Shown here: positions 34,832 through 42,565 of the stretch, piece by piece | Numbering within the stretch: the stretch's first letter is position 1 | Layout: every line of letters begins with the position of its first letter | DNA from: Pelagophyceae sp. CCMP2097 | Taxonomy: Eukaryota > Sar > Pelagophyceae | Length of the DNA stretch: 64,000 bases | Assembly: GCA_026770575.1 (NCBI GenBank) | Contig: MU657176.1 | Span: forward strand, 425,804 to 489,803 | Reading direction: 5' to 3' | Position numbers and translations under genes: made by a program | The notes under the pieces: generated by a model | What the model was told of the DNA's origin: nothing | The model's input: the letters and a program-made list of their open reading frames with translations, nothing else | Databases searched by the model: none

Positions 34832-36129
34832 TTATTCGATGACGACGGCCCACTCGTGTTCGACCTTGCCGTAGTGGATGGCGCAGAGGGAATCCCATAG
34901 TTTCGTGGCAAAGGGCCCGATGGAGTCGCCCGTGGGCACCTCGACTTCGGCGTTTTCGTAGAAGATGGAGCGGATGGGGCAAATGACGGCGGCCGTGCCC
35001 GTCCCAAAGACTTCCAGGAGGCGGCCTTCCTGAGCCGCTTTGCGCACGTCGGGCATGGTGAACGATTTCTCGGCGACGGCCACGTCCAAGCCCTTTGCCA
35101 AGTCGAGGACGGACCGGCGCGTCACGCCGGGCAGAATGTCGCCATACGTGAGCGGCGCCGTGACGAGCTCCCTGACCCCATCTTCGTTGTGCCAGAGCAC
35201 GAAGACGTTCATGGCGCCGACCTCTGTGACGCGGTGCTCCTCTCCAAAGAGGTACAAAACCTGGGCGGCGCCGTACTTGGCCATGGCGTCGAGTTGCGGC
35301 TTGATCGTCGGCCCATAATTGCCGCCGACTTTGGCGTTGCCGACGCCGCCGGGCCAGGCGCGGACGTTTGCCGAGTCGGCGTAGACCTTGATGGGTTTAA
35401 ATCCGTCCGGATAATACGGCCCCACGGGCGAGATGATGGCGTACAAACGCGTCTGCTGCGACTCGCCGACGCCGAGGAACGGGTCCGTCGCAATCGCCGT
35501 CGGCCGCAAGTAAGCAGAGTAGCCCTCGCCCTCTGGCACGAAGCGCGCGTCGACCTTGAGGAGTTGCTTGAGGCACTCGATGAACGCCGGGCCGTCAAAG
35601 GGCGCCATGCCCAGGCGCGCCAGCGACCCGTTCAGGCGCGCCATGTTCAGGTCCGGCCGGAAGAGGCGGATCTTCCCGTCGACGCCGCGGTACCTACCGT
35701 CCGTTGCTCCCACGCGCGCGTCGAGCCTCTTTGAGGCGTCTTAGGCGTTGCCGGGCTTGCCGAATGGCGCGGCATCGGACGCCTTCATGCCTTCGAAGCA
35801 CTGCATGCCGTAGTGCAAGCTCATCATCGCCGGCGAGCAGGCAAAGTCCCCGTAGGGCACGATTTTCGGCGCGCCCCACCCCGCCGCGCGCTGCCAGTCG
35901 GCCAAGAGCATGTGGTCGCTGAAGAGCTTGCCGAAGTTGCCCTTCAAAGCCGCTTTAGAAGGCACCTGAGCGAGAAGCCTCGCCGCGGCCGCAAAGGCGC
36001 GGGGGGGGGGGTCACCTCGCCCGGCTCGGCCCGCCGCTCAATCGTCAGCAGCGACGCGTCCAGCTTCGCCACGCTCGACAGCGCGCGAACCGGCGCCGGC
36101 GCACCGCGCCGCAGCGCGCGGAGTAGCAT
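34832..36129 (-). CDS. BCAT: Branched-chain amino acid aminotransferase
   Basis: Predicted exons (minus) are 36016-36129, 35781-35965 and 34832-35693, giving 386 residues, normal for eukaryotic BCAT. It converts Leu, Ile and Val to their 2-oxo acids using PLP. Family landmarks are [33 protein letters not shown], the SAYLRPTAIATDPFLG stretch, the PLP lysine in GNAKVGGNYG, and GTAAVICPI near the end. The N-terminus MLLRALRRGAPAPVRALSSV is Arg-rich and amphipathic, a good mitochondrial presequence. Intron 1 contains a run of 12 G (about 36000-36011). The gene lies 36 bp from the stop of the PRMT3-like gene in convergent orientation. Confidence 0.92.
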
Positions 36130-37582: not shown

Positions 37583-40039
37583 ATGGGGTGCGCCGCTTCG
37601 GTGAGCGACGGCGCAAAGGGCGGCGATGCCACTGCGACGCTGCAAGAGCCGACCAAGGTAAAAACCGACGACGCCAAGCCTGCCCCCGCGGTGCCCGCCA
37701 CCGCGGAGCCCGCCGCGGAGCCCGCTTTAGCGGAGCCCGCGGCGCCGGCGTTGCCGTGGTGGGCCGCGCCTTTGGACGAGTCGTTTGTGGCCGTGCGCCG
37801 CGAGGTTCGAGCGCTGCCGGATGAGGAACAGAAGCGCTTCGGGGCGGCGGTCATCCAGCTGCGCGAGAACAAGGACGGCGTCCCCGGGACTTCCGAGTAC
37901 TTCCGCCTCGCCATCGTCCACGGCGGCATGCGCGAGCTCAGCAGCAAGGAGTACCCGCCCTACTGCTGCCACGGGCTCGAGTGCTTCCCGAACTGGCACC
38001 GGCCGTACCTGCGAGTCACCCCGCCCCGCTCTATGCCGCGCGCGCCGAGACGCTGCGAGTCACCCCGCCCGCGAAACAGGCTCGACTTTGAGCGGTCGCT
38101 GCGGCGCGCGGACCAGTTCCTCGGCGGCGACGGGCGGCTCGCGCTGCCGTACTGGGACTGGAGCCAGGCAGAGGCCAACGGCGAGGTGCGGTCCCTCGCC
38201 GGGCCCCTCGAGACGAGGCCCCACGCGCTGGCTAGGTTGTGCCCAAGGTGATCCGCGACGTGTGCATGCGCGAGTTTGACTCTGATTTTTTCCCGGTCGA
38301 GGCCGGCGACGTCTCGCGCAACTACGGCATGGCCGTAAACTCTGACGCCGACATCGGCTGGAGCCTCCGCGGCCACGGCGTGGCCGCGCAGGCGGACGCG
38401 TGCCTGCTCTCGAAGGTGCACTCGAAGCACGCGACGACGAAATACTCGGACCCGCGCAACACGTCGTTGGAGTCGCCCCACAACTCCATCCACATGGCCG
38501 TGGGAGGCATGATGGGCCACATGCACTCCTCCTTCCACCCCGTGTTCTGGGTCCACCACTGCAACGTGCGTCTCCTCACTGCAACATGCGCATATCGCGT
38601 AACCCGACCGATAGGTGGACCGCATCTACGAGGGCTACCTCAAAGTCGAGCCGGACTCCCAGGCGGAGTTCCGTCGGCACCAAAAGGGCCTCGGCGGCAA
38701 CGTCTCCCGGGACCACGGCTTCCCGGAGGGGCCGTGGGGCCCGTACTTTCCGTTTAAGCACCCGACGACCGGGGAACAGTTCCACGCCCGCGACACGTTC
38801 GACTGCCGCGCTCTGGGCTTTGCGTACGACGCGGTCCCGGCGCCGAACCCGCCGCAGCTGCGGGAGATGCCGTACTATGCCATTTTCCCGCAGATTGACA
38901 TCAAGAAGCTGCCGGGGACGTGCTCGCTCTACGTCTACGTCACAGACTCGTCGGCGGAATGGACGGCGCCAGGGTTCGCGGCGACGCCGCGCGAGTTGAT
39001 GGCCCCCGAGACGGGCTTTGCAGGGTCGGCGGGCGTGTTCTTTTTAGACACGAACGCGTGCCCGAATTGCTTGCAGCGCGAGCCGTACGACGAATACGTA
39101 GACATCACCGCCGCCCTCCGCGCAAACCGCATCCGCCCGGCAAAGTGCAAGCTGCGCGTTTTGGTCATTTGGCACAACGGCAGCGGCGCCCAGGCCATCG
39201 AGGCGACGGCGCTCCACGCGCCCATGCTTCGCGGGCCAAAGTTTGAAAGCATGGAGACATCCATCCAAGCGGCCGAGGGCAAGGAGGAGGACGACGAGGA
39301 CGAGGACGTGGCGGCTTTGAAGGCTTTGCTCGGCGACGCGCTGGCGGTGGACAGCATGGAGAACGTAATTAAGGCCGCCCAGAAGCGCCTTGGCCTGAAA
39401 GAGGACGGCGTCGCTGGTCCGAAGACAAAGCGCGCGCTGCTGAGCAGCGGCCTCTCCGCCGACGACGCGCTGCCCGGCGAGAAACTCGACTGTTTACGTG
39501 GAGACGTCGTCACGTACAAGGTCCTGACGGCGACGATGCCCGCGTCGCTGCCGCGCGACAAGACGCTATCCGCGATCCAAGACGCCCTCGACGTGTGGAC
39601 GGCGGCCACGGGCGTCTCGTTTGCGCCCGCCGCACCCGCCGCCGTCGACGCCGACGGCGACGACATCGACGACGCCGCGGCGCTCGCCGGAGTCCGGCTC
39701 ACCATCTCGTGGGAGGACCGCACGGCGGCCAACGACTTTGTATTCGACGGCCCCGGGGGCGCTTTAGCCGTCGCGACGCCGTCGAGCGTCATCTTGGACA
39801 GTTCCGAGTTTTGGGAGCTGGACGACGCGCCGCACCCGCGCCGCAAGCTCGGCGGCGACGCCTTTTTCGACCCGTACTTCCGCCTCGAGCCCGTGCTCCT
39901 CCACGAAATCGGCCACGTCCTCGGCCTAACGCACTCGGACGACTCGGAGGACGTCATGGCGCCGTTCTACGTCTCCCACCGACTCGAGCTCACGGAGATC
40001 GACGTTCAACGCGCGCAAGCAATCTTCCCGCAGGAATGA
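37583..40039 (+). CDS. Tyrosinase fused to PGBD and matrixin metalloprotease domains
   Basis: Predicted exons are 37583-38010, 38080-38185, 38236-38565 and 38615-40039, giving 762 residues. It starts MGCAAS, a typical N-myristoylation/palmitoylation signal. The tyrosinase copper sites are CuA (LAIVHGGM, CCHGLECFPNWHRPYLLDFE, PYWDW) and CuB (SPHNSIH, then FHPVFWVHHCNVDRIYE). A hemocyanin-C-like beta domain follows (CKLRVLVIWHNGSG). After an acidic linker comes a peptidoglycan-binding-like helix bundle (VIKAAQKRLGLKEDGVAGPK), as in matrixin propeptides, and then an M10A catalytic domain (VVTYKVLTATMP, DALDVWTAATGVSF, the zinc motif HEIGHVLGLTHSDD and Met-turn DVMAPF). One continuous 1425-bp exon holds CuB-side sequence through the protease, so the fusion is not an assembly of neighbouring genes. 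Intron 1 has a GC donor and a duplicated donor region. Confidence 0.9.
38009..38070. repeat. 18-bp direct repeat of a splice-donor region
   Basis: CTGCGAGTCACCCCGCCC occurs at 38009-38026 and 38053-38070. The first copy spans the exon 1/intron 1 junction of the tyrosinase fusion (CT|GCGAGT), the second lies near the intron end. Confidence 0.85.
38557..38590. repeat. 14-bp direct repeat of a splice-donor region
   Basis: CACTGCAACGTGCG (38557-38570) and CACTGCAACATGCG (38577-38590) differ by one base. The first spans the AAC|GTGCGT boundary of tyrosinase intron 3; in the second the donor GT has become AT. Confidence 0.8.
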
Positions 40040-40372: not shown

Positions 40373-41545
40373 TTACGATTCAGGGCGGACTGCGGCGCGC
40401 CGCATTGAAAAGGTGCCGATGAAGCAGGGGTCGGCGTTCCACCCCACGGCCGTGACGCCGGCCGCGCGGAGCGCGACGCGGACGCCGGAAGCGTCGAGGC
40501 CGTTTGCGGCCCCTGCGCCGCCGAGTTCGCCGACGAAGAGCATGTCGCTGTCGTAGCTGACGCCGGTGCCGACGAGCCTCGGCGACGTCCCGAAGCGCCT
40601 TGCCCAGAGAAATACGAGGTGGCCGCGGCCGGGGGCGCCGCTGAAGAGGTCCAAATCGTCTTCGTCGTCGAAGACGTTCCAGGTGCCGCAGAGCTTTGCG
40701 TCCGTCCGAGGGGGGGCGGCTTCGAGGCCTTGGCTGAGGAAGGCCTTGTCGTCGCGCGTGCTCCGGGCGGCGGCGCGCTCGAGGCTGCGGAGGCCTTCGA
40801 CGAGCCCCGATTCGAGGACGGCGGGCCGCATGCCGAAGCCGCCCTCGCGCGACGACTCGGAGCCGTCGAAGCCGCCGACGGTCTCCCACGTCCTGTTCGG
40901 GTAGAGTCGGACGTCGTAGGCCACCGACTCAGTCGTCGTGAAGACCAAGTCCCAGCGGCCGTCGACGGCGCCTGCCTCGCCCGCGTCAAAGGCCGGCGGC
41001 GCCTCGACGGGCGGCGGCAGCGCCTCGTGGAAGTCGGGCCAGAGCGGCGAAAGCGAGAATTTGCCGACCCACTCGGGCTCGTGCGCGCCCTCGAGGATGC
41101 TCCCCCGGAAGATGCCCAGGTTGGCGCCGGCGTCGGCGGGCGCGCCCGTGTACCACTCGACGGGCGACTGGCGCTCGAAGCGCGCGAGTCGGAGCTCGCG
41201 GTCCGCGCCGTCCGAGTACCACCGGCCCTTGAGTTTCTCCGCCAGCGCCACCGAGGCGGCCGCCGAATCGCCCGTAGCGAAGCGGGAATCGTGCCACGCC
41301 GTAAACGTCCCAGCCGCAGTAAGCTTGACGATGACGTCGTCGACAGCCGGCAGGCCAACCTCTTCGCGCCGCAGCCGCCACAACCCGACGAGCGACGTTC
41401 TAGGACCGCCGACCGGCGAATGCGCCGGCTCCGGGAACGCACCGGCGCACAAAACGGGCAAACGCGCCGCCGGCTGCTGCGCCGGCGCGCGGGAGCTCTG
41501 GAACGCCGCACAGCGCCATGCGCACAGCGCCAGGAAACCGCGCAT
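40373..41545 (-). CDS. Conserved plastid-targeted-type protein, unknown
   Basis: A single-exon frame of 390 residues. The N-terminus MRGFLALCAWRCAAFQSSRA has a signal peptide ending in AAFQ, the A-F site used by complex plastids of stramenopiles. The rest contains many beta-strand-like segments around W/G residues (SLVGLWRLRREEVGLP, FTAWHDSRFATGD, DGRWDLVFTTTESVAYDVRL, KLCGTWNVFDDEDDLDLFSG, AVGWNADPCFIGTFSM), which suggests a lipocalin- or PAP-fibrillin-like barrel. I cannot name the family. It is not interrupted by any stop and keeps strong codon bias, so it is a real gene. Confidence 0.6.
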   Translation of the reverse strand: MRGFLALCAWRCAAFQSSRAPAQQPAARLPVLCAGAFPEPAHSPVGGPRTSLVGLWRLRREEVGLPAVDDVIVKLTAAGTFTAWHDSRFATGDSAAASVALAEKLKGRWYSDGADRELRLARFERQSPVEWYTGAPADAGANLGIFRGSILEGAHEPEWVGKFSLSPLWPDFHEALPPPVEAPPAFDAGEAGAVDGRWDLVFTTTESVAYDVRLYPNRTWETVGGFDGSESSREGGFGMRPAVLESGLVEGLRSLERAAARSTRDDKAFLSQGLEAAPPRTDAKLCGTWNVFDDEDDLDLFSGAPGRGHLVFLWARRFGTSPRLVGTGVSYDSDMLFVGELGGAGAANGLDASGVRVALRAAGVTAVGWNADPCFIGTFSMRRAAVRPES

Positions 41546-42565
41546 CCGCGCGACGCCGGCGCGACGAGGCGGCGACGCGCCGACGCGCTCTTCGAAGGCG
41601 CCGCCGGCCGCGGGTTTCCCCGACCGGGCGCGCGACGTGAGCCGCTCCGTTCACGAGCCGGGCAACGCCGATAGAAGTTTGGTTGTACGTGCAGCTCCAA
41701 AATGTTCCGGAATGTGCTGGAATTCGTCCGTCGCAAATCCGCAGCCGAGAGACCGCACGTCCGCGCGACCCTCCACGCCAGGTGAATCAAGCGCGGCGTC
41801 GCCGAAGGGTAGCATGAGAAAGCTACGTGCCAGGTCAATCAAATCTCACGTCCTTTTACTGTGCATTTAAAGATTTTCACCGCGATTTTGGCCGAAACGG
41901 AGGCCCGCGCGACGATGCGGGCTACGCCTGCCTTGCTATCGGCTTGGCCTGCTTCGCACAGTGCCTTCGAGCGTTGCGGTTCCTCTCGTTGAAGTGCAAG
42001 CCTGTCGACGTGGGAGCGGACAACTTCCGAGCCCCTTTGGTGCCTCGGATGCCCGCCGGCTGCGCCATCTTCATCAACATTGTGTTCATGGCCCAGTACT
42101 CGGCCGAGGACCACTGCGACTTCCTCGGCAAGAGAACCCGCGCCTGCAAAGTCGCCCGACCCGCAAAGTGCAAAGTCGCCCGACCCGGACGGTTTCGCGC
42201 GCAGTGGCCTGCGTGAAATGCCTTTGCGACGACCCCGCCCCGAGGCCTCTATCTCGGCGCGTGTGTGATGTACTTTGGCCAGAAGAACTCCCGCGCATTG
42301 GCGCAGACGGATGTCGTGGACGGCAAGCATGTCGAAGTCGCCCTCGACGACCAAGTCCTCGCCAAGGAAAAGCCCCTCGTATTGCCGCTCTGAGGGCCAC
42401 CGCGCTGAAACGAATTCGCGCGGACGCGCCCAAAGGCGCACACCTTTCACGAAGACGTACCAGGGGGGGGTATCCCAACGACAACGCCGCGGCACTAATG
42501 CAATGCTCAAATCTTCGAACAGCACCGTACGACAAAGGCGCCAGAGACCGCGGGTATACAGAGTA
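41546..42565. other. 1-kb region with one weak candidate gene
   Basis: On the plus strand a frame from about 41890 reads CLAIGLACFAQCLRALRFLS and then FINIVFMAQYSAEDHCDFLG, and near 42250 RGLYLGACVMYFGQKNSRAL. This is possibly a small membrane protein split by an intron whose donor lies in a duplicated 19-bp unit (42145-42163, 42169-42187, TGCAAAGTCGCCCGACCCG). I could not find a splice pattern that joins the parts in phase. The rest of the region shows no convincing coding frame; long antisense frames run across it without domain matches. Confidence 0.3.

Follow-up and report, generated by a model that had tools for sequence, protein, structure and literature searches.

A predicted fusion of a lid-bearing tyrosinase with a pro-MMP-like matrixin unit in a pelagophyte and other single-celled algae

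The window analysed here, a stretch of 64,000 nucleotides from contig MU657176.1 of Pelagophyceae sp. CCMP2097 (assembly GCA_026770575.1, positions 425,804 to 489,803 of the forward strand), contains at 37583-40039 on the plus strand a gene whose four exons join, in the splice model, into a single open frame of 762 codons followed by a stop. The encoded protein combines a type-3 copper tyrosinase with a matrixin metalloprotease, and 35 distinct relatives carrying both domains were found by protein searches. Sequence and predicted fold gave the architecture, which consists of a lipid-anchor motif, a latent tyrosinase and a unit resembling a pro-matrix metalloproteinase (pro-MMP); from this architecture we infer a mechanism in which the attached protease might mature the tyrosinase. 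Judged from the sequences, the fusion is genuine and is a conserved family across single-celled algae.

An earlier note on this DNA had described a fusion of a tyrosinase, a peptidoglycan (PG)-binding-like domain and a matrixin, with complete copper and zinc motifs. Pfam bore this out, with Tyrosinase, PG_binding_1 and Peptidase_M10 all above their curated cut-offs (Table 1), and the motifs quoted were present with no key histidine ligand missing. The six copper histidines are H113, H130, H139, H260, H264 and H286, with a cysteine (C128) two residues ahead of the second, and each is a histidine in all relatives that have a letter there (34 to 39 of 49 alignment rows). The zinc site is formed by H718, H722 and H728 with E719, followed by the Met-turn M736, so that the matrixin signature is complete (HEIGHVLGLTHS at 718-729 and DVMAPFY at 734-740); HExxHxxGxxH was intact in 32 of the 35 fused relatives. 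Two residues that we take to be the calcium residues of the matrixin loop, D683 and E686, were retained in 43/43 and 42/43 relatives with letters, respectively. No NCBIfam model scored above its cut-off for either the protein P0003 or exon 4 of the window gene. A chance match is excluded by the Pfam E-values together with the 35 relatives that carry both domains.

The argument for a single gene holds because the lid and the protease lie on the same stop-free exon of 1425 bp. The same note had assigned the CuB side to this exon as well; the whole protease and the lid are indeed there, but the three CuB histidines (codons at 38479, 38491 and 38557) all lie on exon 3, and exon 4 begins with V289 of HHCN/VDR, where the stroke marks the junction. 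The introns measure 69, 50 and 49 nt, the first being of GC-AG type and the other two GT-AG. Removal of intron 1 was supported because the 23 residues that it encodes were absent from all 11 relatives spanning that place in alignment A1 (the remaining 2 of 13 fall short of it); its retention would add these 23 residues beside CuA. Two identical 16-nt copies in direct orientation (GCGAGTCACCCCGCCC; 38011 and 38055) also lie in intron 1; the window has no further copy, and the pair may record the origin of the intron.

A single-sequence protein search returned 13 proteins, all with PF00264 and PF00413. The profile search, in which scoring was limited to the 7996 candidates with the most shared words and from which P0006, P0008, P0009 and P0013 of those 13 were missing, returned 58 proteins: 31 with both domains, one piece of the window gene itself (P0035) and 26 with PF00264 and without PF00413. 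Six of the latter, P0037-P0042, which score 146-387 bits, resemble truncated members of the family, and the other 20, P0043-P0062, with scores of 74 bits or less, resemble ordinary tyrosinases. In the 35 fused proteins pooled from both searches the tyrosinase stands ahead of the protease; among them are proteins of Aureococcus anophagefferens (P0004 and P0032) and of the haptophyte Scyphosphaera apsteinii (P0024). P0004, the nearest named relative, shows 49% identity over 88% of the query; its source name, 'metalloendopeptidase', covers the protease only. All three domains were confirmed by Pfam in each of P0014, P0024, P0026, P0028 and P0030. The join is supported at the cDNA level in relatives because P0014 and P0015 have MMETSP transcripts with open reading frames marked complete. 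Emiliania huxleyi is represented by a partial record, P0070, to which the full-length relative P0034 is 92% identical. The zinc motif of P0034 reads REIGLALGLGLS: REIGL replaces HExxH, and there is no third histidine. Two further residues are gone from this protein, the Glu of position 257 and the Asn that follows HisB1. In P0007 (1252 aa) the tyrosinase is preceded by a Dpy-30 motif (PF05186) and by a very long run of alanine-rich sequence.

A search with the protease half returned 12 proteins, among them the window's own piece (P0035), the fused P0032 and the E. huxleyi piece P0070. Lid sequence precedes the bundle in P0063, P0065 and P0066; the short P0064, P0067, P0068, P0069 and P0072 may or may not be pieces of fusions, and P0071 (42 bits) is an unfused matrixin. 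Within this search, limited by length and shared words, no close relative of the protease half was shown to stand alone. A scan of bacterial sequences found 298 stretches encoding relatives, and the 80 kept of these 298 match only query residues 50-495, that is, tyrosinase and lid; the scan used tyrosinase patterns, so bacterial fusions remain compatible with its result. A viral origin was rejected, as a family-profile scan of viral contigs gave 14 pattern matches and no confirmed relative.

The two halves were put in separate trees, each with the window protein and 27 of the 35 fused relatives, by a quick method with Shimodaira-Hasegawa-like approximate likelihood ratio (SH-aLRT) support only; P0012, P0013, P0019, P0020, P0021, P0023, P0032 and P0036 were left out as fragmentary or doubtful. 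Six supported groups were common to both trees (P0014/P0015 with P0006, P0010/P0018, P0011/P0017, P0024/P0034, P0027/P0033 and P0028/P0031), and the window protein grouped with P0001, P0004 and P0008 in both. These groupings suggest that the two halves have been inherited together.

Between the core and the protease lies a conserved lid that was missing from the domain list of the earlier note. This lid offers a reason for a tyrosinase to have a protease joined to it. The predicted structure of P0003 (mean predicted local distance difference test, pLDDT, 89.6; predicted template-modelling score, pTM, 0.89) aligned over 387-393 residues with the latent mushroom and Aspergillus tyrosinases, as against 283-288 with lid-less forms, and the order of the lid strands was the same in the exon-4 model of the window protein. 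By sequence and predicted fold, the protein has the form of a latent, lid-bearing tyrosinase with a beta-sandwich lid behind the core. By homology and fold, C437/C440, kept in 39/40 relatives with letters, would be a CxxC copper-loading motif of the lid, and F430, which is F or W in 38/38, may be the aromatic plug of the copper site.

The PG-binding domain had been treated as a separate feature; it is present, but its position matches that of an MMP prodomain. The exon-4 model (pTM 0.69; bundle blocks with pLDDT 48-78) aligned over 202-206 residues with proMMP-9 (5ue3_A and 5ue4_B) and proMMP-10 (9csx), compared with about 143-153 for catalytic domains alone. From sequence and model, the bundle would be a prodomain-type unit ahead of the matrixin, so the protein resembles two zymogens in series. 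The structure-search list of P0003 was full of tyrosinases and haemocyanins and is silent on this pro-MMP-like placing. The cysteine-switch motif of pro-MMPs is PRCGxPD; C581 was considered as a switch of the family and rejected, this Cys being found in the window protein only and in surroundings that differ from the motif. A candidate substitute is D571 in the linker ahead of the protease, an aspartate in 37/41 relatives with a letter there (N in P0010, P0027 and P0033, E in P0017, gap in P0018); this linker is gappy, and an aligner can draw aspartates into one column.

The lipid anchor predicted earlier from the MGCAAS start agrees with the relatives, as a prediction from the motif. We compared the 18 fused proteins with a Met start and at least 80 residues ahead of the third CuA histidine motif, a cut chosen after the N-termini had been seen; of the rest of the 35, P0025 and P0031 were dropped for lack of a Met start and the other 15 were shorter or without the motif. 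Eleven of the 18 start with MG, S6 being present in 8 of the 11 and a Cys within the first ten residues in 9, and an MGxxxS/T-type start was shared by the window protein and 8 of the 18. The enrichment in MG has a binomial p of 1.6e-8 at an assumed background of 8%, the relatives not being independent. The unfused fragments P0038, P0041 and P0042, outside the 18, also start with MG. In a crude hydropathy scan, no secretion signal was seen in the window protein (maximum 15-residue mean 0.54 in the first 60 residues) and no strongly hydrophobic N-terminal stretch in the MG-type proteins. Other members offer other attachments: C2 domains (PF00168) occur in five fused proteins (P0025, P0026, P0028, P0031 and P0036), ahead of the tyrosinase in P0026 and P0028, and P0028 ends in a CaaX-type CALL, presumably a prenylation signal. 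Membrane attachment thus seems to have been acquired by different routes among members, and these features together suggest that most of them sit on the cytosolic side of membranes. Because 11 of the 18 long N-termini start with MG, we favour a lipid-anchored protein of the cytosol over an exported coat enzyme. Coat or exudate processing, the role suggested before, finds no support here, with export not indicated by the MG-type N-termini or by the C2 domains and CALL end of other members.

Our best reading, held tentatively and with somewhat less than even confidence, is that the matrixin is built into a lipid-anchored, intracellular double zymogen as the maturase of its latent tyrosinase, perhaps triggered by calcium on injury. 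Myristate and palmitate at the N-terminus, as predicted from the motif, would tether the protein to the inner membrane face; the copper core, expected from homology and fold to hydroxylate and oxidise phenols, would be held latent by the lid, and behind the lid would stand the pro-MMP-like unit of PG-binding prodomain, linker and matrixin. Matrixins require calcium, and the latency of this one might be lifted, perhaps, by calcium entry into a damaged cell. The freed matrixin could then cut the core-lid region on the same chain or on one beside it; quinones would form at the damaged membrane. The most explicit version, a two-stage zymogen cascade on one lipid-anchored polypeptide of marine algae, in which an aspartate-switch pro-MMP cuts the attached tyrosinase lid on injury or calcium entry and sets off a quinone burst at the damaged membrane, we regard as possible but on the unlikely side.

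Several observations weigh against the maturase reading. The pro-MMP-like placing comes from the weaker of the models, that of exon 4 with its low bundle pLDDT, and the pro-MMP superposition has a root-mean-square deviation of 3.7-4.1, compared with about 2.3-2.7 for catalytic domains alone. PF01471 was not matched in 7 of the 35 fused proteins, in which the prodomain would be dispensable or unrecognisable. No conserved cysteine switch was found: a Cys stands at the C581 column in 0/42 relatives with a letter, and elsewhere in the 562-592 stretch in only 5/43 (P0027, P0033, P0064, P0066 and P0069). Seven of the 18 long N-termini lack the MG start (P0004 with MACPCL, P0007, P0022, P0024, P0028, P0030 and P0036), those of P0022 and P0024 being hydrophobic, and 2 of the 20 ordinary tyrosinases of the profile search (P0046 and P0056) start with MG too. 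The half-trees place P0007, P0010/P0018 and P0024/P0034 differently, in some cases with support of 83-97; for P0007, P0010, P0018, P0024 and P0034, the last of which is a long branch, this may reflect an exchange of halves, chimaeric records or a long-branch error. Finally, P0034 and P0070, the E. huxleyi type, lack the three zinc-ligand histidines, with the architecture kept in P0034. By sequence these copies look like a natural pseudo-protease branch, and proteolysis would not be needed in every member because they have lost the zinc ligands.

Among other explanations, the two domains might be independent effectors, the protease cutting and the tyrosinase cross-linking the same outside or membrane-bound targets (coat or exudate, or an anti-grazer or anti-viral burst) with no maturation involved. 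Tyrosinases are able to cross-link proteins, both active sites are conserved and a variable linker connects the units, all of which would suit this alternative; the MG-type proteins, however, show no visible export signal in the crude hydropathy scan, and, if the lid-bearing tyrosinases of PMC4157443 and PMC10526336 are a guide, the lid points to a step of maturation. We hold this alternative to be possible and rather doubtful. In another alternative, the matrixin part serves chiefly to extend the lid for regulation or structure, for instance by sensing calcium or docking, and its peptidase activity is secondary or lost. In its favour, P0034 keeps the fold with REIGL for HExxH and no third His, P0070 likewise lacks the three histidines, and the calcium-type D683 and E686, whose calcium role is our assumption, are widely retained. 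Yet 32 of the 35 proteins have a complete zinc motif, and among the three exceptions P0019 and P0036 appear to have wrongly predicted C-termini. We consider such an extension unlikely.

Among solved folds, mollusc haemocyanin units come closest, and an oxygen-binding or catechol-oxidase protein in place of a tyrosinase has accordingly been considered and given a slim chance. Molluscan haemocyanin functional units are secreted oxygen carriers in tandem arrays and have no protease. A merger of two adjacent genes by annotation or assembly, which might be suspected where the gene model of this species rests on genomic sequence, is scarcely credible: lid and protease share the stop-free 1425-bp exon, and the join recurs in the 35 relatives, including P0014 and P0015 with their transcripts of complete-marked reading frame.

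Compared with known systems, the latent fungal tyrosinases (Agaricus abPPO4 and Aspergillus oryzae MelB; 19-20% identity) have no attached protease, and the protease that activates mushroom tyrosinase is described, in a passage of PMC4157443, as of unknown origin and type. The maturase reading bears on this question, as eukaryotic lid-bearing tyrosinases are made latent and a protease that is covalently part of one would make activation testable in cis. The matrixin family is otherwise known mainly from secreted enzymes. The window matrixin differs from pro-MMP-9, pro-MMP-10 and bacterial karilysin in being joined to a tyrosinase, with no signal peptide seen and no conserved Cys switch, and in the alignment the His residues of MMP-16 that are presumably structural-zinc ligands have no His partner in it. 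Aureococcus P0004 has both domains in the same order as the window protein, but differs in its MACPCL start and in having no PF01471 match. Each domain is known; their combination and its conservation appear undescribed, in line with the earlier note, as literature searches of open-licence papers, which could miss an earlier description, returned no enzyme with this order. The protein would be an intracellular, acylated matrixin in bloom-forming pelagophytes and in haptophytes, and might take part in defence or in the response to wounds.

Table 1. Features of the fusion gene and its neighbours in the window
Feature	Coordinates	Strand	Basis or content
MGCAAS, codons 1-6	37583..37600	+	Predicted N-myristoylation (G2, S6) and palmitoylation (C3)
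Exon 1	37583..38010	+	MGCAAS motif, low-complexity linker, CuA site (H113, C128, H130, H139)
Intron 1	38011..38079	+	69 nt, GC-AG, in frame, stop-free
Exon 2, part of tyrosinase core	38080..38185	+	Splice model
Exon 3	38236..38565	+	CuB H260, H264, H286; waterkeeper E257; N261 after first CuB His
Exon 4, 1425 bp	38615..40039	+	End of tyrosinase core, lid, PG-binding bundle, matrixin, stop codon
Tyrosinase core PF00264, residues 104-296	37892..38638, introns included	+	Pfam 110.8 bits, cut-off 22.6, E 1.6e-31
C-terminal tyrosinase lid, about residues 372-496	38864..39238	+	Predicted strands, P0003 superposition, conservation
PG-binding-like helix bundle, about residues 502-566	39254..39448	+	Pfam and exon-4 model; occupies MMP prodomain position
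PG_binding_1 PF01471, residues 535-563	39353-39439	+	Pfam 25.3 bits, cut-off 23, E 1.8e-5
D571, candidate aspartate switch	39461..39463	+	Linker ahead of protease; D in 37/41 relatives with a letter
Matrixin PF00413 (Peptidase_M10), residues 586-759	39506..40027	+	Pfam 80.8 bits, cut-off 24, E 1.3e-22
HEIGHVLGLTH	39902-39934	+	Zinc motif, matrixin domain
Met-turn M736	39956-39958	+	Matrixin domain
Aminotransferase class IV (PF01063)	34832-35740	-	E 9e-22; ordinary upstream neighbour
Stop-free 425-aa frame, convergent, just 3' of the fusion gene	40373-41650	-	Pfam: no match
Stop-free 684-aa frame, PTTA-repeat stretch and protein kinase PF00069	42990-45044	-	E 2.8e-35

In the 66-Mb genome of the species itself, the fusion gene was the sole PF00413 match found, a lower bound from four candidates scored exon by exon, and no second fusion was found by a whole-protein search, which returned only the gene's own exons (three candidates scored). 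Further tyrosinase loci lie on contigs C261, C332 and C11/C630; the matches on C11 and C630 (L004 and L005) have identical scores, and these are probably a duplicated or haplotype contig. Of the neighbours listed in Table 1, the kinase-bearing frame is possibly a receptor-like kinase, as judged from its repeat stretch and kinase match.
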